A stretch of 33,251 nucleotides of DNA from Candidatus Omnitrophota bacterium (GCA_029560465.1 JAKQKX010000082.1:68947-102197), one strand, 5' to 3'. Numbered from the stretch's first letter, positions 9,844 to 33,251 are shown. Notes: a model not told the origin generated them from the letters alone. Numbers and translations: made by a program.

Positions 9844-11520
9844 TTAGTAGTTCCCGACATAAATACCTTCGTTAAAGACCGTTACAAAAAACCGTCTATG
9901 AAGGGCGTCAACAATGATCCTCCGGATATAGGACCGCCCTTCTCCTGCCCGGAAATATCGAACCGTCTTTTTGGTTTTCAGGTCAATGACTTCGATGATG
10001 TTTGTAAAATGATTGGCGGCGAACAATAACCCCCGTTTCCTGTCGAGTGCTCCGTTCTCCGTCCCGTATGGAATGAGGAAGCGGTCGAGCAGATTCATGC
10101 TCCGGGCATCAATGGTAAAAATGTTCACGGGCCCGGTACTGACACCGCAATGCAGGCGTTCTCCGTCTTCGGAGACCATAACGATTCCAGGTGAGGTTAA
10201 GGGGAAGCGGTTCAGGATTGCCAATGTTTCGGCGTCGACTTTATAAATGAAAAATTTTGATGAGGGCTCATTCCAATTTGTAGCATATAACACGCCGAGT
10301 TTCTTGTTCGGCACCAGCATGGAGCCCTCTCCTTCCCGAATGCAGACGCTTAACATGGTTTCTGCGGGGGACGAATCCGCCGGGTTAAGTTTGTAAATAC
10401 ACAAGCCTTCTTCCGTGAGCCCGTAAATACGGTTATTCAGGTAAGTTATATAATTATCCCCGGCATTAAAAAGCGGGGATGAGAGGGCCTGTTTGATGGA
10501 ATGCGTCGTTAAATCCATGATCAGCAGCTGATGGAACCCTCGGTCTGTAAAATAGAGTTCTTGTGTTTCATTGTTGACGGCAAGCCAGTCCCCCATGGAG
10601 TCTTCGGTCCCGCTTGGCATCACGGCTTTATACAGGATGACCGGAGGGGCCATGTGTTCAACAGAAATACGCTCCACCTGCCCTTCCAAGTCATTGAGGA
10701 CGATCAGGGCGTCTCCGTTCTCATAATATTGTAGGTCGTAATAATATCCTTTTTGCAAAAGATGCATGTCAACAAGAGAAGAACTCTCCAAGGGCGTCAT
10801 GAGAAGCAGGGTGATAAACACAACCAGGGAATAATGCCCCTGTTGAATGATGTGCGCTTTTCGGGGAGGTATCGCCTTCCCCTGAAGCAAATATAAAAAT
10901 TTTAGGTAAAGGGGAAAACAAAGCCATTCGGTCACAAAAAGACCCGTGGCAGAGAAAGCCATAAAGACATTTTTCCTTGTCCGTGATGAGAAAAAAGACT
11001 CGCTGTTAAAAAAAATGAAATCCGCTGCGTAAACAATATTGATTAAGGCCGTTAAAAACAATGCCGTCACAGGTTGAAAAGATTTGATGACCAGGCAGAA
11101 CACGGCCGACCAAATCAAATGCAGTAGGAACACTGGGGAGGGCCCGGACACGTTATGAGAAGATTTGCGCCGGCGATTATCCGAGAAATGAATGCATAAG
11201 AAAACGACCGCTAAATAAAGAACATTTAAACCGATGGAGCGCGATAACAAGCGGACTTGGCCGTTTATCATTACGACACAATTATCGACTATATTATTAA
11301 TGGCCGCAGATTTCAAGAAAAGATACTTAGAAAATTCCCGGACAGAATCCGAAGAATCGACAAAATTTTTATAGTAAGGGTTCCGTATGACCTCAATCAA
11401 TAATAAAGGAAGCAAAATAAAGCGGTATTTCAGATAAGGAATTATCAGTTTGCCGTTTTTCATGGAAACGCGTTCTCCCAAAGCCGTTTTCAACCGCTGT
11501 CTAGCGGTGTCCCGGGACAT
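9844..11520 (-). CDS. Membrane protein with C-terminal beta-propeller-like domain
   Basis: Of the 558 residues, the first 250 contain several hydrophobic spans ('IGLNVLYLAVVFLCIHF', 'PVFLLHLIWSAVFCLVIKSF'). The last 300 form repeated beta-rich units with a YncE-like look: 'GDWLAVNNETQELYFTDRG', 'NKKLGVLYATNWNEPSS', 'GALDRKRGLLFAANHFTN'. This suggests a six- or seven-bladed propeller facing outward. The start at 11520 overlaps the upstream gene by 20 bases. A start at 11463 (residue 20, MKNGKLIIPYL) has GGGAG 11 bases ahead and removes the overlap, so it may be the real one. No catalytic residues are recognisable. It may bind or sense the product of the cluster. I do not recognise the full-length architecture. 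Confidence 0.7.
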   Translation of the reverse strand: MSRDTARQRLKTALGERVSMKNGKLIIPYLKYRFILLPLLLIEVIRNPYYKNFVDSSDSVREFSKYLFLKSAAINNIVDNCVVMINGQVRLLSRSIGLNVLYLAVVFLCIHFSDNRRRKSSHNVSGPSPVFLLHLIWSAVFCLVIKSFQPVTALFLTALINIVYAADFIFFNSESFFSSRTRKNVFMAFSATGLFVTEWLCFPLYLKFLYLLQGKAIPPRKAHIIQQGHYSLVVFITLLLMTPLESSSLVDMHLLQKGYYYDLQYYENGDALIVLNDLEGQVERISVEHMAPPVILYKAVMPSGTEDSMGDWLAVNNETQELYFTDRGFHQLLIMDLTTHSIKQALSSPLFNAGDNYITYLNNRIYGLTEEGLCIYKLNPADSSPAETMLSVCIREGEGSMLVPNKKLGVLYATNWNEPSSKFFIYKVDAETLAILNRFPLTSPGIVMVSEDGERLHCGVSTGPVNIFTIDARSMNLLDRFLIPYGTENGALDRKRGLLFAANHFTNIIEVIDLKTKKTVRYFRAGEGRSYIRRIIVDALHRRFFVTVFNEGIYVGNY

Positions 11521-13087
11521 CTTGATCCGAGGCGGGGCAGCCGGGGTGCCTCTGTGACATGAAGGACCGAAAACATTGCTTGCCCTGCAACCATGCCCGG
11601 CGGGCAGACTGCTTGAGTCTGCGCCGGATAAAATACCGGTAATAATACGTTTGCATTTTATGGATATATTTTAACTCATAATTGTTAGCCGGGAAATTCC
11701 AAAAAAAATACAAAATTCGTAAAGGGATAAAGCTGGGCATAAAAGTGTACGCCTTTTTTTGATAAAGCCAACGGACGGCCTTGGCGGGAAGGTGTCGAGA
11801 AAGAAGAAAGAAAAGATAGAGCTTCCTGCTGTCCGTGTTTTCCGTGTCTCCCCCAACCGCGAAATTCCGGCCTAAATTCCCTTGGGCTGTTTTTAAAACC
11901 TGTTCATGCGAAATCAGGCCATTTTTATACGCCTCCTGCGTGATGGTGACCGCCGGGTAATACTTCAACCAGTAAAAATTAACGCTTCCAAGTCTTTTCG
12001 CCCGGCACATCTGTAAGAATTCAAACAGAGAATCAAGGCTTTCCCCTGGGATCCCGCTGATAATGTCCAGGACATAACTGAATTTAAATTGACAGCAGAT
12101 GTCCAGCAGCTTCTCCAGGGTTTTGTTGTCCTCCATCCGGTGCAAGATTTTTCGCCTGATATTTTCATCCCAGGACTGGATGCCCAGGTTAATTTCCACA
12201 CAGCCGCTGTCCTTGAGGGCCTCAAGCACATCCGTGGAGACTTGAGAAGGATAAAGGTAACAGAGAAACGGCAACCCGACCTCCCGGCTGTATTTTTCCT
12301 TAAATTCATTCAACCAGTTGATTTCCGTTGGGAAACAATCATCCATAAACCGAACCAGGGAAATGCGGTAAGCGCTTTTGGCCGTAACCAGTTCTTGAAT
12401 GACATTATCAACACTGCGTTGGCGGCAGTACTTCCCTTTTCCCTGGTATAATTTTCTAAAATAAGAATGGATGCAATATGAGCACGCGTGCGGGCAACCG
12501 CGGTTTGTAAGCGTGTAATAGCAGAACCGGAAATGAGGGCTTACGGAATAATAAAGATCTTTGTCGGCAAACGGCAACGCGTCTAAATCCTCTATCAAAG
12601 GGCGGATGTCATTTTTTATGATTTTACCATCTGTTTTGAACCAGATATTTTTAATAGATACGTCGACCGTCCCACGGGCCATACTGTTGACCAAGTCAAG
12701 GAGAGCGTGTTCTCCTTCCCCCAGGCAGACCATATCGATGCCATTATTTTCGATAACGCTGTCCGGGCTGGATGTGGCGTGAATCCCTCCGAAAATAATG
12801 GGCACATCCATTTCACTTTTGATCCGGCGGGCCAGGTCGCAGGCCCACCGGAAAGAATCCGTGATGACTGAAAAGGCGACCAGGTCAGGCTTGAAGGGCT
12901 TTAAATCCGCCAACAGCTGAGGTTTGAAGTCAAAAAATTTTCCCAAAGGAGAAATTGTTGTGTCGGAATCGTTAAACAGCTCCGGATCCATGAATAATTT
13001 AACGTCATGGCCGGCCTTTTTTAGGACGGCAGAAAGATATTCAAACCCCATGCTTTCATAGGCATTGCTGATGAACGCGATTCGCAT
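11501..13087 (-). CDS. B12-binding radical SAM protein, paralogue A
   Basis: The 528-residue protein is the last and most divergent of seven tandem paralogues. The N-terminal cobalamin-type domain runs from 'MRIAFISNAYESMGFEYL' through 'VPIIFGGIHATSSPDSVI' to the 'CLGEGE' motif near residue 121. The radical SAM cluster is Cys198, Cys202 and Cys205 (GCPHACSYC). The barrel continues with 'LVRFMDDCFPTEINWL' and 'IQSWDENIRRKIL'. A strong AAGGAT ribosome site lies 4 bases ahead of the start. The C-terminal 120 residues are aromatic and basic ('YYYRYFIRRRLKQSARR') and longer than in its relatives. Usual activity in this class is methyl transfer or C-C bond making on unactivated carbon. The substrate is unknown. 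Confidence 0.88.
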   Translation of the reverse strand: MRIAFISNAYESMGFEYLSAVLKKAGHDVKLFMDPELFNDSDTTISPLGKFFDFKPQLLADLKPFKPDLVAFSVITDSFRWACDLARRIKSEMDVPIIFGGIHATSSPDSVIENNGIDMVCLGEGEHALLDLVNSMARGTVDVSIKNIWFKTDGKIIKNDIRPLIEDLDALPFADKDLYYSVSPHFRFCYYTLTNRGCPHACSYCIHSYFRKLYQGKGKYCRQRSVDNVIQELVTAKSAYRISLVRFMDDCFPTEINWLNEFKEKYSREVGLPFLCYLYPSQVSTDVLEALKDSGCVEINLGIQSWDENIRRKILHRMEDNKTLEKLLDICCQFKFSYVLDIISGIPGESLDSLFEFLQMCRAKRLGSVNFYWLKYYPAVTITQEAYKNGLISHEQVLKTAQGNLGRNFAVGGDTENTDSRKLYLFFLLSRHLPAKAVRWLYQKKAYTFMPSFIPLRILYFFWNFPANNYELKYIHKMQTYYYRYFIRRRLKQSARRAWLQGKQCFRSFMSQRHPGCPASDQDVPGHR

Positions 13088-13104
13088 GTTTATCCTTTCC
13101 GTTG

Positions 13105-14580
13105 TTAATGCGCGCCCTTCAAGAGGCGGCTGTAACGGGCAATCTCCCGCCTGATCAGCAATTTGTCATTATAGGCGGTCGAAAATAAACTTGTTAAAGC
13201 GGCAAAAATGCCCGGAGATTTCATCCTGTTGAAATAACGGTAAATTTTTTTCTTTATCATCCAGGATACGACACGGGGCGGCAAGAGCGGGATAAGAAAG
13301 AACAGGAATTGCAGGCCCATCCAATCTTTATTCATGGTATTCCCCCCCCTTGAAAATGGGCGGCTCGGCGCCCCCTCCATAATAAGTTCATAATCCTCTG
13401 CGCTTAAAATCCCTCGTTCTTGGGCGTATTCTGTGATCTTGGTCCCGGGATAATAGCGCAACCAGAAAAAATAGATCCGGTTGACCCTGCGTTGATTATA
13501 AAATTGGGCCAGATGGACAATATCGCTTTCTTTTTGCCCGGGCAGGCCAACAATATTATCCGCGACAAGCCGGATATTTTCTTTTTTCAACATATCGATC
13601 GCGTTGGCGATCGTTCGTACAGACATATTTCGGTTCAAAACCGTGCGGCTTAAATCTTCGTTGAGGCTTTGAACGCCGATTTCCACTTCACAGCACCCTG
13701 CGGTCTTAAGCAACCGGGCGGCCTCTGCAGACACATGGCTGGGATACATATAGCATATAAATGGCAACCCGACTTCCCTCGGGTACTTCTCACAAAATTC
13801 TTTCAGCCAGTCAAGGTTTAATCCCAGGCTGTCATCAAAAAAGCGCACATACCGTATCCTATATTGCTTTTTAGCGGCTTTCAGTTCATCCAGGACATTG
13901 TCGACCTGCCGTTGCCGGAAATAGGCCCCTTTGCCACGGCAGCCTTGCCTTAAAACAGAGTGGCAGCAGTAACTGCAGGAATACGCGCAGCCCCGGCTGG
14001 CCATGATGTAATAACATTGCGCCAGGTGCGGGCTTTGGGAATAAAAAAGATCTTTTGCCGGGAAGGGCAACGTGTTGAGGTCCCCGATTAAATTCCGCTG
14101 TTCGTTCTTAATGACGGCACCATTCTTTTTAAACCAGATATTTTTTATGGAATAATCAGGGGTCCCGGCGCTTAGGCTCTGAACAAGCTCCAGCATGGGG
14201 TGTTCCCCTTCTCCCACGCAAACCATATCCACGCAATTATTTTTTATGACGCGTTCGGGGACGGATGTCGGGTGGATCCCTCCAAAAATAATGGGAGCCG
14301 GGATCTCCTTTTTGATGAGGCCCGCCATTTGACAAGCCCACGGGTAAAAATCCGAAACCACGGAGAACCCGATAAGGTCAGGCGCGAAAGCTTTAAGCGC
14401 CGGGACGATCGTTTTTTTGTAATCAAACCGGGCATGAAGGCAGCGGATGCTGATATTTTCGTCATTAAAATATTGCGGGTCGACGAAAAGGCGCACCTCA
14501 TGCCCATGGGACCGCAAAAAGGATGCGATATACCCGACGCCGAGACGTTCACAGGAATCGTTGACAAACGCGATTTTCAT
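13105..14580 (-). CDS. B12-binding radical SAM protein, paralogue B
   Basis: The 491-residue protein begins 'MKIAFVNDSCERLGVGYI', nearly the same as paralogues F and G. The B12-type domain contains 'APIIFGGIHPTSVPERVI' and 'CVGEGEHPMLELV'. The rSAM cluster is Cys198, Cys202 and Cys205 (GCAYSCSYCC), with an extra Cys right after the motif as in E, F and G. 'RFFDDSLGLNLDWLKEF' and 'NIVGLPGQKESD' mark the barrel. The start overlaps the stop of paralogue C by 4 bases (ATGA), and there is no good ribosome site of its own, so translation depends on C. A run of eight G on the coding strand (plus 13342-13349) lies in its 3' third. The C-terminus is basic and amphipathic. Confidence 0.9.
   Translation of the reverse strand: MKIAFVNDSCERLGVGYIASFLRSHGHEVRLFVDPQYFNDENISIRCLHARFDYKKTIVPALKAFAPDLIGFSVVSDFYPWACQMAGLIKKEIPAPIIFGGIHPTSVPERVIKNNCVDMVCVGEGEHPMLELVQSLSAGTPDYSIKNIWFKKNGAVIKNEQRNLIGDLNTLPFPAKDLFYSQSPHLAQCYYIMASRGCAYSCSYCCHSVLRQGCRGKGAYFRQRQVDNVLDELKAAKKQYRIRYVRFFDDSLGLNLDWLKEFCEKYPREVGLPFICYMYPSHVSAEAARLLKTAGCCEVEIGVQSLNEDLSRTVLNRNMSVRTIANAIDMLKKENIRLVADNIVGLPGQKESDIVHLAQFYNQRRVNRIYFFWLRYYPGTKITEYAQERGILSAEDYELIMEGAPSRPFSRGGNTMNKDWMGLQFLFFLIPLLPPRVVSWMIKKKIYRYFNRMKSPGIFAALTSLFSTAYNDKLLIRREIARYSRLLKGAH
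13342..13349 (-). repeat. G8 homopolymer inside paralogue B
   Basis: Eight C on the plus strand (eight G in the coding strand) encode the Arg-Gly-Gly-Asn part of paralogue B. A one-base slip would truncate the protein. It is intact as read. Confidence 0.6.
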
Positions 14581-16100
14581 TTTTTCTTGAAATAAAATTT
14601 AATTTTTTTCTTTATAAAATAACCATACCGCCAAAATGTGATGTCCTTGAAATACCTGGATTCAAAATCATTCGCCAGCAGGGTTCGGAACATCGTCAAC
14701 AAAGCCGGATTGAGGAAAGGGGGAAAATACCGGTACCATTTTTTCTGGATAATGACCCGTGTCCAGCCGGCCGGGATAAGGTCCATAAGGACAAATAAAA
14801 TTTGGGCTTGTTTCGATTCCCGGTTTTGCCGGTTGGGGTTGTTTTCCTGGGACGCATTATAACGCAGGATCCCCAGCGTGTCCCCTCCCTCCAGGCAGTC
14901 TTCGTATTGCGAAGCCGTTATCCAGTGATGCTGGACAGCGATTTGACTCAATTTTGTCCCAGGATAAAAATGAAGCTTATAAAAATAGTTCCGGGTCGGT
15001 TTATAGCGCGTGTAGATATCCAGGGACTCTATGAATTTTTCCATGCTGTATTCAGGGAAGTCAAACAAATTATCGATCAAAAGTTCGATCCCGGAGTCTT
15101 GGATAAGTTTCAAAGCGTTTTCCATGATTTCATTGGAAACCCTGCGGGTCAACATGTCGTGTCTCAATTGAGAGTCCCAACTCTGAATCCCCAGGGAGAT
15201 GGACCGGCAGCCCGCCGCTTTAAGGCAGGCGATCGCTTCCTGGTTCACCGAGGCGGGGTGCATCACGCAAAAGAAATCCAACCCAATTTCCCGGGAATAC
15301 TCCCTGGAAAATTCCCGCAGCCACGCGATATCTGTCCCGAAGCAGTTATCAGGGAACATAATCCGTTTGATATTTTTGTGCGTTTTGAGGATTCCAGATA
15401 TCTCGTCAATAACGTTCCGAACGCTGCGATGCCTGATCCGCTTGCCTTTGCCTTGATAAAGATCGTGCAGATACGACATGGTGCAGTAACTGCAGCTGTG
15501 CGGGCACCCCCGGGATATCATGGTGACATAACTTTTCGTGTCATAGGAACTGCTGGAATAAAACAGGTCCTGATCCGGAAGTGGCAGGGCATCCAGATCA
15601 GGAATCAACGGACGGATGCCGTTTTTGATAATCTCCCCTTGTCCGGTTTTGAACCACAGGTTCGGGATCGTGTAATCAATTTGCCCGCGATCCATGCTGT
15701 TGACAAGTTCCAGCAGGGGGAACTCCCCTTCTCCGACGCAAATCATATCGACATATTCTTTCTGAATGACCCGTTCCGGGACGGCTGTCGGATGGACGCC
15801 CCCGAAGATGATGGGGATGTTGAGCCGCTTTTTGATTTTCGCCGCGAACGCGCAGGCCCATTGATAAATCGGGCTAGAAACCGAGAAACCGATTAACCCG
15901 GGGTTGAATTCGGCAATTTCTTTAATAATAGAATCCTGATAATCAAAAATTTTGTTGAGTTTGGGTAACGTGATGTATAAATCATTGAATAAGCGCGGGT
16001 CTGAAAATGTTTTGACGTCATGCCCATGCGCCTTGAGCATCGCCGTAAGGTATTGAATGCCGACATGCTGATCAGCTTCGTTGATAAAGGCGACTTTCAT
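14577..16100 (-). CDS. B12-binding radical SAM protein, paralogue C
   Basis: The 507-residue protein starts 'MKVAFINEADQHVGIQYL', sharing the 'GIQYL' form with paralogue E. The B12-type domain holds 'IPIIFGGVHPTAVPERVI' and 'CVGEGEFPLLELVNSM'. The rSAM motif is Cys199, Cys203 and Cys206 (GCPHSCSYC). 'RIMFPDNCFGTDIAWL', 'FFCVMHPASVNQEA' and 'LGIQSWDSQLRHDML' mark the barrel. The C-terminal segment 'ESRYFKDITFWRYGYFIK' is shared with paralogue D, suggesting C and D are sisters although a Tes-like gene stands between them. An AGGGAA ribosome site precedes the start, and the stop overlaps gene B by 4 bases. Confidence 0.9.
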   Translation of the reverse strand: MKVAFINEADQHVGIQYLTAMLKAHGHDVKTFSDPRLFNDLYITLPKLNKIFDYQDSIIKEIAEFNPGLIGFSVSSPIYQWACAFAAKIKKRLNIPIIFGGVHPTAVPERVIQKEYVDMICVGEGEFPLLELVNSMDRGQIDYTIPNLWFKTGQGEIIKNGIRPLIPDLDALPLPDQDLFYSSSSYDTKSYVTMISRGCPHSCSYCTMSYLHDLYQGKGKRIRHRSVRNVIDEISGILKTHKNIKRIMFPDNCFGTDIAWLREFSREYSREIGLDFFCVMHPASVNQEAIACLKAAGCRSISLGIQSWDSQLRHDMLTRRVSNEIMENALKLIQDSGIELLIDNLFDFPEYSMEKFIESLDIYTRYKPTRNYFYKLHFYPGTKLSQIAVQHHWITASQYEDCLEGGDTLGILRYNASQENNPNRQNRESKQAQILFVLMDLIPAGWTRVIIQKKWYRYFPPFLNPALLTMFRTLLANDFESRYFKDITFWRYGYFIKKKIKFYFKKK

Positions 16101-16133
16101 TACGTTTCCCTTGATTGACCCTGCTTGTTGCGG

Positions 16134-17477
16134 TCAGCGGCAGGCGTTGCCGCGATTTAAAAGCGTCACGTCAGAAACAGAATCCGACAACGCCAGATTT
16201 CCGTCCTGGCTGAAAACAAAACCCTGCCCGCAGTATTGTGAAATGCCGGCGTCGTATTTATATTTATCACAGACCGTTCCAAAACTAACCAATAAGATCT
16301 TCGCGGGGATTTTTACGTTCCGTTTTTTCCCGGGCAGCAGCATGTTGAACGGCATGACTTGAATTTTCTTGACCGGATCGTGCGTCAGGATGTTCATGAT
16401 AAATTGCAGCAGAAAATATCCCGAAGCCAGTGTTTTATTCCCTTGGATTATCCGGCTAAAACGGTCAAACTTTTTGTCAAACGCGGCCAGGTCAAAGAGC
16501 GCGTCGAAGGACTGATACCCCCCCCGGCCGTCCCTGATTAAAGCGAGCTGATGAAAATTATAGCAGCGCCGGATATTAAAGACAGACAATACAGAATAAT
16601 ATAATTTTTGAAATAAATAAAGACTGCGCCGGTTAATTTTCCCTTTCGTCTCCTGTTCCGCTAAGTCAATCAGGTCATCCGGCATCAGCAAATCCTCGGG
16701 GGAGAAGTTCTTCTCCGCATTTCCCAAGAAGGACACCGAAGCGAAGCTCACATCCCGGATAAACGTTTTTTTAATGGCGTAATCGATGATCGGGTTGATT
16801 TCCTTCTCATTCACGCCTTTGGCGATTGTGACATTGAGGCCTGTCGGGATATCCAGCTTTTCAAGATTATCCAGGGCTTTCAGTTTCAGAGAAAGCAGGT
16901 TGCGGTCTCTTAATTTCATGTACACGTTATCATCAAACCCATCGAATTGCAGGCTCACATAATCAAGGCCTGCTTTCTTTAATGTTTCCAGGTAATGATA
17001 ATTGTCAAGCTTGATGCCGTTGGTGTGAATATTGACGAGATTCCCGTATTTTTTAAGTAAAGCGATCCATTCCGGGAGGTCATCACGCAGGGTGGGTTCT
17101 GCGCCGTAAATGTAATACCGGAAACGCGGGTTTGCCCGGATCACTTCCTTGAAACGTTCCAAGTCAACATCCGCCATTTTATCCTGGTTTGGTTCCAGGA
17201 GGCAAATCGGGCAATCAAGGTTGCAGCGGTTACTCAAATATATATAAAAACGTTTTTGAGGCATACGGCTTGGCATGACTCTAAAATAATAGTCCGTGAG
17301 GTTTTTGTAATACCAGGGATGCCGTGACACCCGCAGTTTAAATGTCCCGTGGGCCTCACAATGCTTCACCAGAAAGATTTCGCCCCTGGATTCAACAACC
17401 GATGCCTTGACTTTCCGTTGACACTCCGGGCACAGGCTGAATGTGTCCCGGATGTGGTTTTCATTTTGAGTGTTCAT
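16134..17477 (-). CDS. Tes/MJ0619-like radical SAM protein T1
   Basis: The 447-residue protein has three parts. First is a small metal ribbon with Cys16, Cys19, Cys40 and a following His ('CPEC', 'CEAHGTF'). Next is the radical SAM core with Cys85, Cys89 and Cys92 (CNLDCPIC), 'YGAEPTLRDDLPEW', 'NIHTNGIKL', 'VSLQFDGFDDNVYMKLR' and 'VTIAKGVNEKEI'. Last is a tail with a hydrophobic stretch and conserved Cys403 and Cys416 (CDKYKYD, then CGQG). This order and the 'LQFDG' and 'GVNE' motifs match the family of archaeal MJ0619, known as tetraether synthase, which joins unactivated lipid methyl ends. Family membership is established by motifs; lipid coupling here is inference. It overlaps paralogue D by 17 bases. 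T1 and T2 form one subgroup. It contains a G8 tract (plus 16518-16525). Confidence 0.82.
   Translation of the reverse strand: MNTQNENHIRDTFSLCPECQRKVKASVVESRGEIFLVKHCEAHGTFKLRVSRHPWYYKNLTDYYFRVMPSRMPQKRFYIYLSNRCNLDCPICLLEPNQDKMADVDLERFKEVIRANPRFRYYIYGAEPTLRDDLPEWIALLKKYGNLVNIHTNGIKLDNYHYLETLKKAGLDYVSLQFDGFDDNVYMKLRDRNLLSLKLKALDNLEKLDIPTGLNVTIAKGVNEKEINPIIDYAIKKTFIRDVSFASVSFLGNAEKNFSPEDLLMPDDLIDLAEQETKGKINRRSLYLFQKLYYSVLSVFNIRRCYNFHQLALIRDGRGGYQSFDALFDLAAFDKKFDRFSRIIQGNKTLASGYFLLQFIMNILTHDPVKKIQVMPFNMLLPGKKRNVKIPAKILLVSFGTVCDKYKYDAGISQYCGQGFVFSQDGNLALSDSVSDVTLLNRGNACR
16518..16525 (-). repeat. G8 homopolymer inside T1
   Basis: Eight C on the plus strand encode the Gly-Arg-Gly-Gly-Tyr part of T1, between its middle Cys and its hydrophobic tail. 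Slippage would remove the tail with its conserved Cys pair. The frame is intact as read. Confidence 0.6.
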
Positions 17478-20492: not shown

Positions 20493-20493
20493 G

Positions 20494-22002: not shown

Positions 22003-22012
22003 GGCATATGGT

Positions 22013-23341: not shown

Positions 23342-23357
23342 GATTGCCTCGGGATCG

Positions 23358-24920: not shown

Positions 24921-24924
24921 AATC

Positions 24925-26313
24925 TTATGCCCTGCCCTCCGGAGGAAACGCCTCGGGCCCCTCGCCGTTCGTGTCCGGCTTTTTCCAACGCTTCATCTCC
25001 TCGATGATATAGGTTCCGTAACTTTCATGTTGGGCGGATTGGCTGATGATCCCCTGTCCGCAATTTAAAGCAACCGTCGCGTCATATTTATAAGGGTCGC
25101 AGATGCTGGCCAACGTCACCACCAAAAGTTTTCCGGGTTTTTTGGGATATCCTCCGCGGGATAATAAAAACAAGCCGTAGGGAATCAGGGCCAGGCTGTC
25201 CCGTTTCAGGGAGGTTAATAATATTTTAAATAACAGAATTTTCGTCATTGTTCGTTTTTTCTTTTGACTCGCGTCAATTTTCTTGGTGATCCCCCGCAGG
25301 TCCAGATAACGTTCAACACCCTGATACCCCTTGCCGGCCCGGATAACGCAATAATGGTAATAGTTAAAACATTTCTTTTTCCGGAAAGCGATTAAATAGG
25401 CGTAAAACAATTTCTGAAAACAAAGGACATCGTCCCTCTGGATCCGCCCCCGGGAATGCTCTGTGAGGCGTATGACCAGGTCATCCGGCATCATGGCCCG
25501 CCCTAAAGAATCTTCCTGGGGTGAATAATGACAGTATGTGATGTAACTCACGTCTTTAATAAAATCATTCCGGATCACATAGTCAAAAATAGCCCCCCAT
25601 TCCTGCTCGTTAACACCCCTGGCGATCGTCACGTTCAATGTCACCGGGATTTCCAGGGTTTTGAGATTATCCAAAGCGCGCATTTTTACGTCGAGCAGCT
25701 TTCCACCCCGTAAAGTTTCATAAATTTCATCATGAAAACCGTCGAACTGCAAACTCACATGATCCAGCCCTGCGCGTTTAAGGGACTGGGCATAATCATA
25801 ATCGGCAAGTTTCACCCCGTTTGTATGGATGTTGACAAATTTTCCGGCTTTTTTAAGAAGCTGAATCATTTCGGCCAAATACGGGCTGACCGTGGGTTCT
25901 CCGTGGGAAAATGTAAAACGTTCCACATCCGGCTTATCCTGGAGCGCGGCATAAAGGTCCCGGGACAGAAGCGGTGGCTGGTCGTGGCAATAATTCAGGT
26001 AACAAATCGGGCAAGAAATGTTACACCGCGTGCTCGCGCAGACGTAATATTCCCGTTGTTCCAGGGCCCCTGGGATAAAATAAAAATAGCAATCGGACAA
26101 GGCCTGATAATCCTCCGGGTGGGTTGAAACCAGAACGCGAAAGGCGCCATGCCGGGGGCAGGTTTTTTCCAGATAAACAGCCGCCGCTTCAGCCCGGACC
26201 ATGGCCGGTAAGGGGGCCAAACAGACAGGGCACACGCTCATGGTTTCACGGATGACACGGCTGTCATGCTGGGCGGGCTTATTTCTTTTTAACGCTTCCG
26301 TTTTCCCTATCAA
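24925..26313 (-). CDS. Tes/MJ0619-like radical SAM protein T2
   Basis: The open frame can begin at a TTG at 26364 (479 residues, 86-base overlap with T3). I prefer the TTG at 26313, which has AGGAG 10 bases ahead and gives 462 residues, matching the relatives. The first ATG (26241) would cut into sequence that still aligns with them. With my start the ribbon Cys are 28, 31 and 52 (CPVC, CPRHG), and the rSAM cluster is Cys97, Cys101 and Cys104 (CNISCPIC). 'FSHGEPTVSPYLAEM', 'NIHTNGVKL', 'VSLQFDGFHDEIYETLR' and 'VTIARGVNEQEW' follow. The tail has a hydrophobic stretch and the Cys pair of CDPYKYD and NCGQG. With T1 it forms the 'CGQG' subgroup. Lipid C-C coupling is inferred from the family. Confidence 0.8.
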   Translation of the reverse strand: MIGKTEALKRNKPAQHDSRVIRETMSVCPVCLAPLPAMVRAEAAAVYLEKTCPRHGAFRVLVSTHPEDYQALSDCYFYFIPGALEQREYYVCASTRCNISCPICYLNYCHDQPPLLSRDLYAALQDKPDVERFTFSHGEPTVSPYLAEMIQLLKKAGKFVNIHTNGVKLADYDYAQSLKRAGLDHVSLQFDGFHDEIYETLRGGKLLDVKMRALDNLKTLEIPVTLNVTIARGVNEQEWGAIFDYVIRNDFIKDVSYITYCHYSPQEDSLGRAMMPDDLVIRLTEHSRGRIQRDDVLCFQKLFYAYLIAFRKKKCFNYYHYCVIRAGKGYQGVERYLDLRGITKKIDASQKKKRTMTKILLFKILLTSLKRDSLALIPYGLFLLSRGGYPKKPGKLLVVTLASICDPYKYDATVALNCGQGIISQSAQHESYGTYIIEEMKRWKKPDTNGEGPEAFPPEGRA

Positions 26314-27682
26314 TGCGAATCGTCTCCTTTTTGGCAGTTTTACGGTAACGTCGTTCAAAATCAATGGCGCGAAGCCCGTCTACCCCCTGGTTTACCAGGT
26401 GTTCCTGTTGATGGTCATAAAAAATGATTTCATCCTGGCAATGATTCACGAAACCGTAATCGATTTTATAAGGATCGCAGCTCGTGTTAAAATTCAGGTA
26501 AAGAAATGGATTGCTTTTTAAAGCGTAATCCTTATTGATCATGAAAGAGAATCCGGTCCGTAAAATTTCTTTCAGGATCACCAGCGTGGACCATCGCATC
26601 AGAAAAAACGGCAAGCCCAAAATCAAAATGATTTTGGCGAAAACGGGATGCCGTGGAGCCAGCCTTTGATAAAATCTTAATAGCCTGTCAGCCCGTTCCA
26701 GGTTAAGATAGCGGTCAATGGGATCATGGGTCCCGTCACGTTTTCGGAACAGGACAAAAATCTGGCTGTAAAGGCAATACCGTTCTGAACGCAGGGATTT
26801 AATGGCCAGGTGCAGTTTCTGAAAAAGAATAATGCTGCGTTTGGAAATCCGGCCGCTTGATCCTTTTTCCAAAATGTCGCCGATCGTATCCGGCATTAAG
26901 AAATACCGTAAAGGCCAGCGGGCCGTTTCCCCCAGGTAACAAATCGTAAAAAAGTTAACGGAAGAAATAAACGGGTGCTTGCTGGCGAATTCGACGCTGT
27001 CCATGACGGCCTGTTCATTGACGCCCCTGGCGATTGTCATGTTCAGGTCGGTTGGCAAATGTAGTTCTTCCAGGTTTTTTAGGACCAGCAGCTTTTTATC
27101 CAGGATATTCTTTCCCCTAAAAATTTCATACGCTTCCGGAGCGAACCCGTCAAACTGAAGGTTAATTCGGTCCAAGCCCGCGGCCTGTAGGGAACGGATG
27201 TAATCTTTGTCATGCAAAAATAATCCGTTTGTGTGCAGGCTGATATGCTTGCCATGTTTTTTAAAAAGTCGAATAATGGCCGGGAGATCTTCCCGGCACG
27301 TGGGCTCCCCACCGGAAAGGATGTAGGCCGGCTGGTCATGCCGTGTGATAAATTCCTCAATCTTTTCCAGGCTGGGGTCCGGGATGTCAATCCGGTTGCT
27401 GTCTCCCAGATGACAAATGGTGCAAGATGTGTTGCAACGCATTGTCACCCAGATTTCATATTCACGGATGTGGAAAGACGGACTCATAACGCTGAAAAAG
27501 AAACTTTCCAGCTCTTTATAAAGACTTGCGGTTTCAGAGAGAAGAATCTCGGATATCCCGTGCCGGGGGCAGGTCTTGCTTAGATAAACCCGGCCGTCCT
27601 TCTCCAGGACCGTCGCAGGCACGGATTCAAGGCATAAAGGACAAACGCTTTGTGTCGCGCGTATCATGTTCTCCGTGTTCAT
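26279..27682 (-). CDS. Tes/MJ0619-like radical SAM protein T3
   Basis: The 467-residue protein has ribbon Cys14, Cys17 and Cys38 (CPLC, CPRHG) and the rSAM motif Cys83, Cys87 and Cys90 (CNTSCTIC). 'LSGGEPTCREDLPAI' (the GGE SAM-binding motif), 'SLHTNGLFL', 'INLQFDGFAPEAYEIFR' and 'MTIARGVNEQAV' follow. A hydrophobic segment around 'LPFFLMRWSTLVILKEIL' precedes the tail Cys pair in 'TSCDPYKID' and 'HCQDEI'. It belongs to a subgroup with T4 and T5 ('CQxEI' tails). It starts 3 bases after T4 and overlaps the possible start region of T2. The reaction is unknown; MJ0619-type coupling of alkyl ends is the nearest known chemistry. Confidence 0.83.
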   Translation of the reverse strand: MNTENMIRATQSVCPLCLESVPATVLEKDGRVYLSKTCPRHGISEILLSETASLYKELESFFFSVMSPSFHIREYEIWVTMRCNTSCTICHLGDSNRIDIPDPSLEKIEEFITRHDQPAYILSGGEPTCREDLPAIIRLFKKHGKHISLHTNGLFLHDKDYIRSLQAAGLDRINLQFDGFAPEAYEIFRGKNILDKKLLVLKNLEELHLPTDLNMTIARGVNEQAVMDSVEFASKHPFISSVNFFTICYLGETARWPLRYFLMPDTIGDILEKGSSGRISKRSIILFQKLHLAIKSLRSERYCLYSQIFVLFRKRDGTHDPIDRYLNLERADRLLRFYQRLAPRHPVFAKIILILGLPFFLMRWSTLVILKEILRTGFSFMINKDYALKSNPFLYLNFNTSCDPYKIDYGFVNHCQDEIIFYDHQQEHLVNQGVDGLRAIDFERRYRKTAKKETIRIDRENGSVKKK

Positions 27683-27685
27683 AGG

Positions 27686-29056
27686 TCACCCCGAGTTCTT
27701 AGCATCATGCCGTTTCTCCAAATTTATGAAATAGGCCCCTTCTCTCCCGATCGGCCGTAAAGAGTGCTGTGTTTGATCCGCGGCCATGATCTCATTCTGG
27801 CAATTTTGCAGGATCGTTTGATCAAGTTTATAAGGATCACAGCTCGTTGTGAAACTTAAAGCGAGCAGGCGGCTGGTCTTAAGATAACGTGAGGTCCTGG
27901 CAAAGTAAGATAGTCCTGAGGCCAGAATTTCTTTCAACAGGACAAAAATACGGGGATGACAGAACAAACATAACAACGCCAGCGCCAGGTGAACAGCGGC
28001 GGCTCCGCGTTTTTTGGAGGCGTAGGCGCGGCTGTAACGGTCCAGCCAAGGTTCGGCTTTGGAAAGGTTCAGAAACGCGTCAATCGGCTCGAAAGCGGCC
28101 CCGTGGCGTACCAGCACATAAAGTTGATTATATAAACAGGCGCGTTGTCTAAAAAAGGCTTTGACAGCGAAATGAAGTTTTTGAAAAATATGAACATTCT
28201 CTTTTTTGACATGATATGCGGGGATAGCGCACACTACGTCAATCACTTCATCCGGCATCATGTAGCGGTCCGGGTTCCAGTCCCGCGCCCCGCCGTCGAA
28301 CGCGATCGAGAGGAACGCGATTCCGTTAATAAACGGATGCGCCAGCGCGTAATCAATCAATTCTTGAACCGTATGTTCGTTAACATTCTTGGCAATCGTG
28401 GAACTGAGCGCGGTTGGCATTTGGTGCTTCTCTAAAAGAGACAGGATGGATTGCCTTTCAGTCGTCACGTCCCCCCCCCGCATAATAACGGAAACCCGGG
28501 AGTCAAAGCCGTCACACTGTAAAATAACGCGGTCCAACCCGGCATTTTTAAGTTTCAATAAATAGGATTCATCCTGAAAGCGTAGGCCATTGGTATTCAA
28601 CGTCACCGCTTTCCGGTATTTTTTTAAAATACGGATAATATCAGGCAGGTCTTCGCGGACAGTGGCTTCCGCGCCGGAAAGGCAGTAAAAAGGGTGTTTA
28701 TCCCGGTTGACGAACTGTTCAATCGCGGCTAATGTCGGCTCAAAAAGCCGCGGGGACTCCCTCGGGCAGCCGAAAAAACAGATAGCGCAATCCATGTTAC
28801 ACCGCAACGTGGGCCAGATTTCATAATCAAAACAGGGCTGGGCGTCACTCATTAAGGCGCAATAAAACCTGTCCAGGTCGGCGTACAAATTGGGAGTGCC
28901 TGATAGGCGCACGCGGAAATTCCCGTGCTTGGGACAATCTTTTTCCAGGAAGACCCCATCCTCTTTCGACACAATATGGGCGGTCAAAGGGGCCGAACAT
29001 GCCGGGCAAACACTTTCTGTTGTGCGCAAGACCGAAGTGGCGCCGACCGTTATCAT
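27686..29056 (-). CDS. Tes/MJ0619-like radical SAM protein T4
   Basis: The 456-residue protein has ribbon Cys17, Cys20 and Cys41 (CPAC, CPKHG) and the rSAM motif Cys86, Cys90 and Cys93 (CNMDCAIC). The GGE motif is altered to 'LSGAEATVREDLPDI', unlike the GGEPT of T3. 'TLNTNGLRF', 'VILQCDGFDSRVSVIMR' (LQCDG instead of LQFDG) and 'STIAKNVNEHTV' follow. The hydrophobic stretch 'AVHLALALLCLFCHPRIF' and the tail Cys pair (TSCDPYKLD, NCQNEI) are kept. The two changed motifs suggest a shifted substrate or weaker activity. The stop lies 3 bases before T3, and the start overlaps the DegT stop by 4 bases. A G9 tract sits in the gene (plus 28471-28479). Confidence 0.82.
   Translation of the reverse strand: MITVGATSVLRTTESVCPACSAPLTAHIVSKEDGVFLEKDCPKHGNFRVRLSGTPNLYADLDRFYCALMSDAQPCFDYEIWPTLRCNMDCAICFFGCPRESPRLFEPTLAAIEQFVNRDKHPFYCLSGAEATVREDLPDIIRILKKYRKAVTLNTNGLRFQDESYLLKLKNAGLDRVILQCDGFDSRVSVIMRGGDVTTERQSILSLLEKHQMPTALSSTIAKNVNEHTVQELIDYALAHPFINGIAFLSIAFDGGARDWNPDRYMMPDEVIDVVCAIPAYHVKKENVHIFQKLHFAVKAFFRQRACLYNQLYVLVRHGAAFEPIDAFLNLSKAEPWLDRYSRAYASKKRGAAAVHLALALLCLFCHPRIFVLLKEILASGLSYFARTSRYLKTSRLLALSFTTSCDPYKLDQTILQNCQNEIMAADQTQHSLRPIGREGAYFINLEKRHDAKNSG
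28471..28479 (-). repeat. G9 homopolymer inside T4
   Basis: Nine C on the plus strand (nine G in the coding strand) encode the Met-Arg-Gly-Gly-Asp part of T4. It is the longest single-base run I noticed in a coding region here and a likely site of slippage. The frame is open as read. Confidence 0.65.
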
Positions 29057-30324
29057 GTCTTATCCCCTCCGCCCATGGAAAGCAGGGTTTGCTTCAGCGC
29101 TGCCGCCACAACCCGGATGTCACGGGCATTCAAATAAATGCCATTCGGTATCACAAGGAGATTGGAGGATATCCTTTCAAAGGCCGGGAAATCCCGGCTG
29201 TCCGCCCCGAAAACACGGAGTTGTTGGGGGTTGGTTAATTCATTTAATTGAGTATCCACCGATCGTTTAAGCAGTCTTGCCCGAAGCTGGTCCAAAGAAA
29301 GAGGCCGTTGGATGTGAACCGCATAATAAAGGTAAATATGCCCGACGTCGGGATGGGGGACCGGCAGCCCGATCCCAGGAGTCCCTTCTAATAACGCGTT
29401 CAATAACTGGGCATTGCGGGCCCGGTCCTGATTGCGCTCGTCCAGAGTTTTTAATTGTTCCAGCCCCAAAGCGGCCTGAAATGAGGATAACCTCACCTTC
29501 CATTCTTCCGGCATATGCTCCAAAATGACTTCGGAATCTTTTTTATGCTCAACGGGGTTGTACGGGTCCCGAAGATTAAGAAAGCGCATCACCGGGTAAA
29601 GTGTCAGGAAAAAAAAGCGCGGCCGGGTCAGAATATTGGCAATCATAGAATTGATAACTGAAATTGCCAATGGAACGGCCCGGGGAGCGTGAAAATTTTG
29701 AATCATCGCGGAGACAAAGTCTTTCATTTTAGGATCATTGAAACACAACATCCCCCCTCCAAATGTGCAGATCGCCTTGGCTTTTCCAAAACTGAAAATA
29801 CTGGCATCGGAGAAACTCCCCACCTTCTGCCCTTTATAGGTCGCGCCGGTGGCCATGGCGCAATCTTCGATAACCTTTAGATCATAGGCGTTCTTTATTT
29901 TCGTAAAAGCGTCCATGTCGCAGGGTTGCCCCCACATATGGGTTAAAATCAACAGACGGGTCTTTTTTGATATCAGTTTTTTAACCAATTGCGGGTTTGT
30001 GTTATGCGTTCTTTCGTCAATATCGACAAAAACCGGCTTAAGACGGAACGTTTTAAGGACCGTAAAAATACTCTGATGCGTAAACGGGGTGATGATGACT
30101 TCCGTCCCTTCCGGGAAATTGAAATATTGAAGGATTGCGTAAAGCCCCAGCCGGGCAGACGGCATAGACAAGGCGAAACGGGTGCCAATGTATTCCGCGA
30201 AGCGCCTTTCAAATTCCGGGAGCAATCCTTCTTTTTCAAAATGGGACGCGAAGATAAACGCAAAAATACGCTTATAATCGCGCCAGGTGATATCAACGGA
30301 ATGTCGGGGATACGCTTTCAGCAT
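29053..30324 (-). CDS. DegT/DnrJ/EryC1/StrS-family aminotransferase
   Basis: The 423-residue protein shows the PLP fold type I pattern of this family. 'ALSMPSARLGLYAILQYF' binds the cofactor phosphate region, 'VIEDCAMATGATYKGQKVG' holds the Asp that contacts the PLP ring, and 'FSFGKAKAICTFGGGML' carries the Schiff-base Lys, most likely Lys183 by alignment to the usual SFxxTK pattern. These enzymes usually aminate keto-sugars, sometimes other ketones. The start lies one base after the T5 stop, and the stop overlaps T4 by 4 bases, so the gene is embedded between two Tes-like genes. It probably aminates an intermediate or product of the rSAM steps, or a sugar attached to it. The extended C-terminus contains the usual mixed alpha/beta small domain. 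Confidence 0.88.
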   Translation of the reverse strand: MLKAYPRHSVDITWRDYKRIFAFIFASHFEKEGLLPEFERRFAEYIGTRFALSMPSARLGLYAILQYFNFPEGTEVIITPFTHQSIFTVLKTFRLKPVFVDIDERTHNTNPQLVKKLISKKTRLLILTHMWGQPCDMDAFTKIKNAYDLKVIEDCAMATGATYKGQKVGSFSDASIFSFGKAKAICTFGGGMLCFNDPKMKDFVSAMIQNFHAPRAVPLAISVINSMIANILTRPRFFFLTLYPVMRFLNLRDPYNPVEHKKDSEVILEHMPEEWKVRLSSFQAALGLEQLKTLDERNQDRARNAQLLNALLEGTPGIGLPVPHPDVGHIYLYYAVHIQRPLSLDQLRARLLKRSVDTQLNELTNPQQLRVFGADSRDFPAFERISSNLLVIPNGIYLNARDIRVVAAALKQTLLSMGGGDKT

Positions 30325-30325
30325 A

Positions 30326-31708
30326 TTAACAGGGATTGATTTTCTTTTCTTTGGAAACTTTATTCAAATGCCTTCTTTCCAGGCCCATGCAATAAAGCCC
30401 GTCGCTTCCCAGATGAGTAATGACGCCATCCAGGTCTTGGGCCGCGATGATTTCATTCTGGCAATGCTTAACAATGTCAAAATCGAATTTATACGGGTCA
30501 CAGCCGGTTGAAAAACTCACGGAGAAAAAACGGCTGCCTTTAAGATAATGCCGGGTTTTTAGAAAATAAGACACGCCTCTTAAAAGGAGCTCCTTTAAAA
30601 TAACGATAGACTCTTTTTTTATAAATAAACACACCACCGCCATCCCGAGATATAACCGCGCCCTGAAGGGCCTGATTTTAAACGCGTCCTTGTAACGGTC
30701 TAGCCAGGGTTCGGCTTTGGGAAGGTTTAAAAAGCGGTCAATAGGCTGGCAACCCCCGTTCCCTCGGACAAAAAGGTAAACCTGGTTATAGAAGCACCAT
30801 TTCTGTGAAAGAAATGATTTAACCGCCAGGTGAAGTTTTTGAAATATATAAACATCCTTTTTAGAAATCGGCACGTCCGTCTGTTCAATAAGCACATCGA
30901 TAATTTCATCAGGCATAATATATGAACTCTGTTTCCAGTCCCGGGCGCCCCCCAGGAAACAGATGGTAAAGAGGTTGACACCGTTGATAAACGGGTTGGC
31001 CGCGGCAAAATCAATTAATTCTTTTATCGCCCGCTCATTCAGGTCCCGGGCAATGGTCGCATTAAACGTCGTCTGGATCCCAAGGACCCGAAGGTTTTCC
31101 AGCACCTGGAGCTTGATATCCAGATAATCCTGACGGCGCAGCGCACGATAGGATTGGCGGTCAAACCCGTCAAATTGCAGATTAACCCGGTCCAGCCCGG
31201 CCTCCTTTAATTTCTTAAGATAATTTATGTCCGCGCATTTTAAGCCGTTGGTGTTAATCGTTACAACCTTACCGTATTTATGAAAAGTTCTTATGATTTC
31301 ATCGAGATCTTCCCGGCAGGTCGGATCGCCTCCGGAGAGGATAAAGAAACGTTTCTGGCTGTTTTTGGCTAATTGCTCAATCTGGGCCATGGAGGCGTCT
31401 TGCCCGGCCATCTCCTGGTTTTGCCTCCCGAAACAGCAGATCGTGCAATCGGCGTTGCATCGATACGTCGGCCAAAACTCATATTCCGGGACCTCGTAAT
31501 GTTCATCCGATAGAGAAAAATAATACTGCTCGAGCTCGGTGTAACAAGACGGCGTAGAAGACAATACGATCTCAAAAGTCCCGTGGCGGGGGCAGGATTT
31601 TTGCATAATCATTTTGGAACCCTTCTCAACAATATGGGCTTCAATCACCTCTAGGCACCGCGGGCAGACACTTTGTGTTTTTCTGATAAGGCGCTGGGGT
31701 GTCATCAC
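30326..31708 (-). CDS. Tes/MJ0619-like radical SAM protein T5
   Basis: The 460-residue protein has ribbon Cys15, Cys18 and Cys39 (CPRC, CPRHG) and the rSAM motif Cys84, Cys88 and Cys91 (CNADCTIC, then another Cys). 'LSGGDPTCREDLDEI', 'TINTNGLKC', 'VNLQFDGFDRQSYRALR' and 'ATIARDLNERAI' follow. 'RLYLGMAVVCLFIKKES' is a hydrophobic stretch before 'VILKELLLRGVSYFLK', and the tail pair is in 'TGCDPYKFD' and 'HCQNEI'. It is closest to T4 ('EPWLDRY', 'RDW', 'VKSF' shared). Translation is coupled to the SPASM gene by a 4-base overlap. The chemistry is inferred only from the family. Confidence 0.83.
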   Translation of the reverse strand: MMTPQRLIRKTQSVCPRCLEVIEAHIVEKGSKMIMQKSCPRHGTFEIVLSSTPSCYTELEQYYFSLSDEHYEVPEYEFWPTYRCNADCTICCFGRQNQEMAGQDASMAQIEQLAKNSQKRFFILSGGDPTCREDLDEIIRTFHKYGKVVTINTNGLKCADINYLKKLKEAGLDRVNLQFDGFDRQSYRALRRQDYLDIKLQVLENLRVLGIQTTFNATIARDLNERAIKELIDFAAANPFINGVNLFTICFLGGARDWKQSSYIMPDEIIDVLIEQTDVPISKKDVYIFQKLHLAVKSFLSQKWCFYNQVYLFVRGNGGCQPIDRFLNLPKAEPWLDRYKDAFKIRPFRARLYLGMAVVCLFIKKESIVILKELLLRGVSYFLKTRHYLKGSRFFSVSFSTGCDPYKFDFDIVKHCQNEIIAAQDLDGVITHLGSDGLYCMGLERRHLNKVSKEKKINPC

Positions 31709-32691
31709 ACTGTCCTTGGCTGTTCGGCCTGCGTTGAATTCAGTGTTTCCTTCAGAGCCAGGAAATAATCATAATTCCAGTCCCGGGCCCGCCAATCCAG
31801 GCAGTCCGCGCAATACGGGATGTCCTGAAATTTTCTTTGCCTATGAAGTGTCCGGATCCGCTCGTAAGCCGGAGAACACCAGACCGATTGCAGGGTGGTT
31901 TCGTTGATATTTCCTATAATAGATTGGTCATGCCAATCTTCCACACAAAATTCGGCAAAACCATCGACATTAATAAACGACCTCTTCCAGAGGTCAGGGC
32001 ATGGCCAGCGCGCGACAGACGGGTCGATTTTAATTTTAGCCGGGTCGACAAGGCCCCGTATGGATGTGTAGGCCCGGGTAATAACCCGATCGACACGCGG
32101 GGTCCAGTAAGCGATAAAAGCGTCCAGTTCGGCCTCGGCTTCCGGCTGGTCGATAATGCTCACAAATATTTTGGTGCGGGCTTTCAATGCGTCTCTTCTT
32201 TGGATAAACTCATTTACCTGGCGCATGACTGTTTCAAAATTTGAGCCTTTCCGGATACGTTCATAAGTTTCTTTACAAAACGCGTCCAGGCTGAATTCAA
32301 CAGCCTCCACCCCGGCTTCCAGTACTGCCGTGGCCCGGGATTCATCCATCAAAAGTCCATTCGTGATGAAATTCACCGGGGCCAGGCCTTGCATTTTCGC
32401 ATAACGGATCATCTCGATGAACCGGGGATGGCATAATGGCTCCCCGTCGCATAAAAGCCGGAAAATGGTTCCGGGAAAAAGGGAAACCTCGTCAACTATT
32501 TTTTTGTAAAGCGGCCAGGCCATATGGCGCGGCCTATAACCCGGCTCTTGGGATATCAAACAAAATGGGCAGTGGACGCACTGCAAATTACAGACATTCG
32601 TAATTTCAACCACCACCATGGGAGGAAATTGTCTAGTGTTAACTCCGCTGAAATCACAGGACGGCATCACTATTTTTTCTGGATCAGGCAT
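31705..32691 (-). CDS. Radical SAM/SPASM-domain protein
   Basis: The 328-residue protein has the rSAM cluster at Cys34, Cys38 and Cys41 (VCNLQCVHC), with 'LLCDGEPLCHP' where the GGE motif is expected, 'NFITNGLLMD' and 'VEFSLDAFCKETYERIR'. A C-terminal SPASM-type Cys set follows ('WPCPDLWKR', 'EFCVEDW', 'YCADCLDW'), expected to bind one or two auxiliary 4Fe-4S clusters. SPASM proteins oxidise or cross-link peptides, sugars or other small molecules. The type next to a DegT aminotransferase is common in sugar and natural-product clusters. The start overlaps the end of the DegT gene by 8 bases. It lacks the ribbon and hydrophobic tail of the Tes-like proteins, so it is a different family. Confidence 0.86.
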   Translation of the reverse strand: MPDPEKIVMPSCDFSGVNTRQFPPMVVVEITNVCNLQCVHCPFCLISQEPGYRPRHMAWPLYKKIVDEVSLFPGTIFRLLCDGEPLCHPRFIEMIRYAKMQGLAPVNFITNGLLMDESRATAVLEAGVEAVEFSLDAFCKETYERIRKGSNFETVMRQVNEFIQRRDALKARTKIFVSIIDQPEAEAELDAFIAYWTPRVDRVITRAYTSIRGLVDPAKIKIDPSVARWPCPDLWKRSFINVDGFAEFCVEDWHDQSIIGNINETTLQSVWCSPAYERIRTLHRQRKFQDIPYCADCLDWRARDWNYDYFLALKETLNSTQAEQPRTV

Positions 32692-33251
32692 AGCGCTTTA
32701 ATAATGGTGGTAATGTTTGCGTTATGTGCAAAATTTCTTTTTTTGTTAACGATGGATATATAGGGACAGAGACGGCTGCCCGCATAACATGCTCTGTGTT
32801 CGGGAATAAACGGCCGGATAAACCTAAATAATGGTGCAGAGGATAAGGCTTGACCGGCTGTTTCACCTTGATCCCTTTTTGCAGGCATTGTTTCATGAGG
32901 TCCAGGATATTCCCGCGTACCTGGATCATATAACGCTGGTAAATATGGCGGCCATTGACGCAATCTGCCGGATGTTTCTCGGTCACAGATGCGAAGGTTT
33001 CGTCATAAACTTTAGCGATGGCCCGGCGTTTTTTAATAAAATTTTCAAGTTTTTTTAACTGAACCCGCCCTACGGCGGCTTGCAGATCGGTCATCCGATA
33101 GGTGTATTTAGCGAGAAAATCACGTGAATCACGCTCTTTCAACTTGCGCAACCTGTTTAACAAGCGGGGAGAGTTGGCTAAAACCATCCCCCCTTCCCCG
33201 GTCACGATATATTTTGTACCTTCGAAAGAAAGCAGGGCCAGGTCTCCCCAG
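32684..33251 (-). CDS. DegT/DnrJ/EryC1/StrS-family aminotransferase, partial (5' end beyond right edge)
   Basis: The frame is open to the right edge, giving about 189 residues of the C-terminal half. Reading past the first in-frame GTG shows 'LLSFEGTKYIVTGEGGMV', with the PLP-binding Lys of the family in the TK pair. 'YTYRMTDLQAAVGRVQLKKL' is the standard helix after it, and 'RHIYQRYMIQV' and 'VSVIYP'-like strands (VSVPIYPSLTKKEI) end the small domain. The enzyme transaminates a keto-sugar or similar ketone. It is closer to the typical sugar aminotransferase than the second DegT gene in the window. It overlaps the SPASM gene by 8 bases and belongs to the same minus-strand run. Confidence 0.88.
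   Translation of the reverse strand, partial: WGDLALLSFEGTKYIVTGEGGMVLANSPRLLNRLRKLKERDSRDFLAKYTYRMTDLQAAVGRVQLKKLENFIKKRRAIAKVYDETFASVTEKHPADCVNGRHIYQRYMIQVRGNILDLMKQCLQKGIKVKQPVKPYPLHHYLGLSGRLFPNTEHVMRAAVSVPIYPSLTKKEILHITQTLPPLLKRYA

Follow-up and report, generated by a model that had tools for sequence, protein, structure and literature searches.

A conserved, tightly packed unit of radical SAM genes in Omnitrophota that probably encodes one multistep pathway

We present here a set of distinct radical SAM enzymes whose genes form a compact and conserved unit, found in a 33,251-base stretch of DNA (the window) from an Omnitrophota MAG (GCA_029560465.1, JAKQKX010000082.1:68947-102197; genome G000). 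That the unit encodes one multistep anaerobic pathway is well supported, since the unit is conserved, its paralogues are orthologous between genomes, its SPASM/twitch and Tes-like genes co-occur, and its genes are under purifying selection. As the product of this pathway we tentatively favor an amphiphile for the cell surface, most probably a glycolipid.

The genes of the unit and its surroundings are listed in Table 1. A preliminary description of this DNA had counted seven B12-type (B1 to B7), five Tes-like (T1 to T5), one MiaB-like (M), and one SPASM (S) radical SAM gene plus one DegT gene (A), and our analysis bore out the counts, families, and strand. B1 to B7 all contain PF02310 (B12-binding) and PF04055 (radical SAM) above the cut-offs, T1 to T5 all contain PF23545 (HMPTM zinc ribbon) and PF04055, and the CX3CX2C motif is present in all 14 radical SAM proteins. 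The same description had the genes packed mostly by 4-base overlaps or within a few bases. The tightness stands, with no core gap larger than 33 bases, but overlaps reach 86 bases, and only four core junctions overlap by exactly 4. The two large overlaps rest on TTG starts that are probably wrong: the annotated TTG start of T2 is uncertain, and B6 has an internal ATG near 22002. The unit also does not end at 32691, as had been proposed. A second DegT gene, A2, overlaps S by 8 bases, belongs to the unit, and continues it to the contig end. The window and its contig (C14; 102,197 bases) share this end, where A2 is cut, and upstream members of the unit are therefore absent from the window.

Table 1. 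Position and assignment of the radical SAM unit and neighboring genes in the window
Gene	Assignment	Position	Strand	Basis or remark
Unit	Radical SAM unit plus DegT, 15 genes	11501..32691	-	7 B12-type, 5 Tes-like, 1 MiaB-like, 1 SPASM/twitch, 1 DegT
A2	DegT/PseC/ArnB-type aminotransferase, 3' part only	32684..33250	-	PF01041
S	SPASM/twitch radical SAM, BtrN-like cluster pattern (C231, C249, C294, C297)	31705..32691	-	PF04055 + PF13186
T5	Tes-fold radical SAM	30326..31708	-	PF23545 + PF04055; AF2 model
A	DegT aminotransferase, PLP lysine K183 retained	29053..30324	-	PF01041; QdtB alignment
T4	Tes-fold radical SAM	27686..29056	-	Pfam; tree sister is a G040 gene
T3	Tes-fold radical SAM	26279..27682	-	Pfam; tree sister is a G321 gene
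T2	Tes-fold radical SAM	24925..26364	-	Pfam; clade n=7, different genomes, support 100
B7	Cobalamin-dependent radical SAM	23358..24920	-	Pfam; clade n=6, different genomes, support 100
M	MiaB/RimO-like radical SAM	22013..23341	-	PF00919 (UPF0004) + PF04055 only
B6	Cobalamin-dependent radical SAM, likely ATG start 22002	20494..22002	-	Pfam; clade with G029, G040, G216
B5	Cobalamin-dependent radical SAM	18978..20492	-	Pfam; clade n=6; AF2 model
B4	Cobalamin-dependent radical SAM	17461..18981	-	Pfam; clade with G029, G040
T1	Tes-fold radical SAM	16134..17477	-	Pfam; clade n=7, different genomes, support 100
B3	Cobalamin-dependent radical SAM	14577..16100	-	Pfam; clade with G029 and three G040 copies
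B2	Cobalamin-dependent radical SAM	13105..14580	-	Pfam; clade with G029, G040, G030, G213, G216
B1	Cobalamin-dependent radical SAM, most divergent B	11501..13087	-	Pfam; nearest is a G030 gene, support 88
	Membrane protein, C-terminal half beta-propeller-like (by inspection)	9844..11520	-	No Pfam match; 20-base overlap with B1
	LPG_synthase_TM-type membrane protein, possible flippase	8780..9829	-	PF03706; 36% identity to gene downstream of G029 B2
	GT2 glycosyltransferase, polyprenyl-phosphate type by weak similarity	8056..8772	-	PF00535; ArnC-family model 52 bits, below cut-off
	WbqC-like protein	7332..8054	-	PF08889
	YfhO-like multi-pass membrane protein	5477..7297	-	PF09586, marginal
B0	B12-radical SAM, N-terminal part of 501-aa gene leaving the window	1..870 (C14:68311-69816)	-	66-67% identity to G029/G040 orthologues

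Fourteen radical SAM genes among 15 successive genes is not random placement, given 67 radical SAM domain matches in the 2.77 Mb of G000, whose whole-genome context was searched one family at a time. An assembly artifact was rejected, as the arrangement recurs in MAGs from differently named samples (RIFOXYA2, AM-lipid, ROV157, and Modern_marine) and the GC content is level. A promoter and terminator scan gave many consensus matches, with terminators at the level of shuffled sequence. Other radical SAM genes, B0 among them, lie on the same strand of C14 as the unit. On this strand just beyond the window, C14:60436-69816 (L011) holds a further series of genes for radical SAM, DegT, and membrane proteins. 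On the plus strand, at 2505-5413 of the window, the gene for a distant radical SAM relative of the B family overlaps a PaaK/FlxY-like CoA ligase gene by 4 bases.

Profile searches with T and B located the array in six more Omnitrophota genomes, which represent at least four additional families: three of the same taxonomic order as G000 (G029, G040, and G030) and three of the same class (G216, G213, and G321). All array-bearing genomes are MAGs, and array membership in G040, G213, G030, and G321 was put together across contigs of one bin. The array of G029 reads B0-A2-S-T5-A-T2-B7-M-B6-B5-B4-T1-B3-B2 and is followed by an LPG_TM gene; the window shares this gene order, adds T3, T4, and B1, and has B0 moved about 10 kb downstream of the unit. 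The B0 orthologues in G029 and G040 stand directly upstream of A2, and by this similarity we take B0 in the window to be a displaced member of the unit. The G216 array, clear of contig ends, reads A2-S-T-T-M-A-T-B-B-B-B-T-B, with another radical SAM gene, GT2, DegT, GT2, and a Wzy-like gene after it. Overlapping gene packing is seen again in the relatives' arrays. A core of A2, S, T5-type, A, T2, T1, M, B7, B5, and B2 recurs, and internal order varies among G029, G030, G216, and the window. Copy numbers also differ between genomes (three T genes in G029, five in the window), so not every step is obligatory.

The phylum searches covered 384 Omnitrophota genomes, with the top candidates per genome scored and absences provisional. 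S was found at high score in six of the 384, all six array-bearing, and S and T co-occur. The seventh array-bearing genome, G321, is fragmented at the S position, and G131 has a more distant S match in a different gene context. One pattern-based scan of GTDB genomes returned Omnitrophota matches and one partial Caldisericota match. Radical SAM matches number 56 to 80 in G000, G029, G040, G030, G216, and G213 versus 19 to 46 in seven array-free genomes, and this surplus exceeds the array's own contribution.

Related arrangements were also seen in the phylum. Contig G054:C102 (L088 + L075) carries a divergent array of about ten B-type and two T-type genes; no gene in the stretch read scored as S, M, A, or A2. 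Two B-type proteins, at L039:4280-6853 and L088:3772-6363, are 857 and 863 aa long versus the usual 500 and are possible fusions. L044, L045, L076, L077, and L078 show a second type of Omnitrophota cluster, in which only one Tes-fold gene stands next to B12-radical SAM genes, accompanied, by inspection only, by U32-peptidase-like and in some cases IorA/IorB-like genes. We know of no description of this cluster type.

Pairwise identities within the window are 38 to 50% among the B copies and 31 to 46% among the T copies. In quick maximum-likelihood trees, built without bootstrap, T1, T2, B7, B5, B6, B4, B3, and B2 each form a clade with orthologues from other genera, while T3, T4, and T5 each pair with one gene from another genome. 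The pairing of B1 with a G030 gene is weaker (support 88). For every copy in the window, the nearest relative lies in another genome and never among its neighbors in the window. The clades with other-genus orthologues indicate that the paralogues split before the genomes did, and a split of that age suggests that they probably perform different steps. Values of pN/pS for nine G029-G040 orthologue pairs are 0.10 to 0.37, a rough estimate with some pairs saturated at silent sites; with the old splits, these low values argue for distinct retained functions. In G040, three B3-type copies lie in tandem (L036:9314-13870), a local expansion within the conserved unit.

The T proteins resemble Tes (GDGT-MAS; MJ0619). 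An AF2 model of T5 (pLDDT 92.8) superposes over its full length on GDGT-MAS 7tom (TM 0.78/0.73, 500 columns), the next-best match being MoaA (TM 0.39). All five window copies have a rubredoxin motif (CX2CX20CX2H) in addition to CX3CX2C. Cys 305, 403, and 416 are invariant in 31 T proteins and align near the C-terminal auxiliary cluster region of Tes, where the cluster carries the alkyl (substrate-sulfur) intermediate (PMC9433317). T has much the same hydrophobicity as Tes in the helical stretch that aligns with part of that C-terminal region. Unlike Tes, to which they are 24% identical, the T proteins are arrayed with B12-radical SAM genes and in alignments lack the segment of the N-terminal auxiliary [4Fe-4S] cluster (C73, C77, C80, and a His). 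By alignment reading, they also have no conserved Tyr just after C416, where archaeal Tes has its strictly conserved Tyr459. They score 118 to 156 bits against the NCBIfam Tes model NF045702 (cut-off, 450 bits) and best, at 147 to 183 bits, against the TrsS radical SAM (seleno)protein family, far under its cut-off of 490; the T frames are open, with no in-frame stop. From fold and motifs, T plausibly works like Tes, though it is not classed as Tes. A pterin methylase function, as the HMPTM zinc-ribbon name would have it, was rejected; Lloyd et al. (PMC9433317) did not reproduce a pterin role for MJ0619.

The modeled B5 protein (AF2, pLDDT 91.6) has the fold of TsrM, CysS, MgmA, OxsB, and AprD4, and the B proteins share fold and domain order with the B12-radical SAM enzymes HpnJ/BchE, AprD4, TsrM, CysS, and OxsB. 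Their CX3CX2C cysteines are invariant in the alignment, and AprD4 is their best PDB sequence match. The four B copies tested scored at most 115 bits against the curated HpnJ, BchE, and rSAM_ladder_B12 models (cut-offs of 360 to 578 bits; 480 to 580 for BchE and HpnJ). Matches to RiPP B12-radical SAM models were weak and far below the cut-offs, and TIGR04072 (ladderane) also matched weakly.

M retains C12, C48, C80, C201, C205, and C208 in 6/6 orthologues and thus has both cluster motifs of the methylthiotransferases MiaB and RimO (the three UPF0004 cysteines and CX3CX2C). Unlike these, it has no Pfam match to the RNA/protein-binding TRAM domain, ends about 70 aa past the radical SAM domain, and scores 222 bits where the subfamily cut-off is 251. 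The cluster cysteines of S are kept in five orthologues. Its best PDB match is BtrN (about 53 bits), the butirosin twitch dehydrogenase; C249, C294, and C297 align with BtrN C187, C232, and C235, and C231 fits BtrN C169 by spacing. S thus has the four-Cys spacing of BtrN and, as BtrN has a DegT partner, overlaps the DegT gene A2, but the remaining butirosin pathway genes were not found beside S. A resembles sugar and scyllo-inosose aminotransferases and has orthologues of 52 to 62% identity in five genomes plus a 58% fragment in G040. A2 is 55 to 65% identical to the gene immediately upstream of S in G029, G030, G213, and G216, and a full-length A2 orthologue scores best against PseC/ArnB models.

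Genes 43 to 52% identical to the GT2 gene by the unit adjoin the units in G030, G216, and G213, a Wzx-like gene lies within the G213 array, and, depending on the genome, the units are bordered by genes of the LPG_TM, YfhO, WbqC, Wzx, Wzy, and PMT types. As annotated, these neighbors are company typical of surface glycans or lipid-linked sugars. No fatty-acid, polyketide, prenyl-transfer, or cyclase genes were found in the unit; lacking the first three, it must take its scaffold from elsewhere. A hopanoid scaffold was rejected, squalene-hopene cyclase being found in none of the seven array-bearing genomes, and an inositol-derived cyclitol was rejected because inositol-phosphate synthase is absent from the same seven.

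In the pathway that we favor, T1 to T5 and B1 to B7 would attack unactivated carbons and form C-C bonds, mainly on an aliphatic chain, with T catalyzing coupling or cyclization and B methylation or ring chemistry. M may insert sulfur or a methylthio group at one of the carbons of a small molecule. S would oxidize an alcohol, and transamination of the resulting ketone by A and/or A2 would give an amino-sugar or aminated head group. Attachment of sugar and transfer of the product to the surface would fall to GT2 and the neighboring membrane proteins (LPG_TM-type and YfhO-type; Wzx-/Wzy-type in relatives). We infer each reaction, the reaction order, the lipid substrate, and the destination. The preliminary description had proposed one multistep radical pathway on one scaffold; the pathway is strongly supported by the conserved unit, orthologous copies, S/T co-occurrence, and purifying selection, and the single scaffold is putative, as is its nature. 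It is possible, if doubtful, that the product is a new bacterial lipid or glycolipid class made by at least 14 radical SAM enzymes, with several Tes-fold C(sp3)-C(sp3) couplings or ring closures along one chain.

DegT, the BtrN-like S, and GT2 are as compatible with a sugar as with a lipid, and the main rival is one pathway on a sugar or aminocyclitol oligosaccharide scaffold, its product an aminoglycoside-like part of a surface glycan. S and DegT would then have the roles of BtrN and its partner in 2-deoxystreptamine synthesis, and B would work like AprD4 or sugar C-methylases, which would suit the BtrN pattern in S, the relatives of A, the match of B to AprD4, and the GT2, Wzx-like, and Wzy-like neighbors. 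We consider this somewhat unlikely, as it leaves five enzymes with a lipid-enzyme fold unexplained, has more radical steps (14) than one sugar has carbons, and is at odds with the missing inositol-phosphate synthase. Another alternative drops the single scaffold and fixed order: co-kept genes would be mixed and matched for several products or for positions of a variable surface polymer. The varying copy number and internal order, the three B3-type copies in G040, and the divergent array in G054 speak for it, yet the recurrent core and the confinement of S to array-bearing genomes make it quite unlikely. A RiPP maturation cluster is very improbable: B12-dependent and SPASM maturases are common in RiPP systems and B matches RiPP models weakly, but there is no peptidase or transporter pair, B falls far below the RiPP cut-offs, and a precursor gene would not fit into core gaps of 33 bases or fewer. 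Recent tandem amplification that raised the dosage of two genes, as the tandem B and T paralogues might suggest, is scarcely credible given their low identities and nearest relatives in other genomes, the B3 copies of G040 being the one exception in the trees.

Our literature search found no description of this cluster or of an equivalent pathway, and the preliminary claim that no described system has this composition held up in the literature searched. The nearest lipid case is the anammox ladderane clusters, with four putative SAM-radical enzymes over several fatty-acid clusters (PMC2649909). These are likewise anaerobic multi-radical-SAM lipid gene clusters including a B12-type enzyme, but their radical SAM genes sit with fatty-acid synthesis genes, and the Omnitrophota unit is without any. 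Tes-like proteins, with reactions that are unknown, also occur in bacteria for which no tetraether lipids are known (PMC9433317). The unit provides a context for such proteins, namely, diverged Tes-fold enzymes conserved with predicted B12-radical SAM, sulfur-inserting, and aminating enzymes. It also offers many diverged candidate catalysts for C-H functionalization and narrows the search for an unusual molecule to a few organisms, known as Omnitrophota MAGs. If true, C(sp3)-C(sp3) coupling or ring closure in these bacteria would be chemistry that until now has been ascribed chiefly to the membrane lipids of archaea. Candidate producers of the orphan bacterial membrane-spanning lipids of anoxic settings include Omnitrophota (PMC11868695), and if the product is a membrane lipid, the unit would bear on the source of those lipids.
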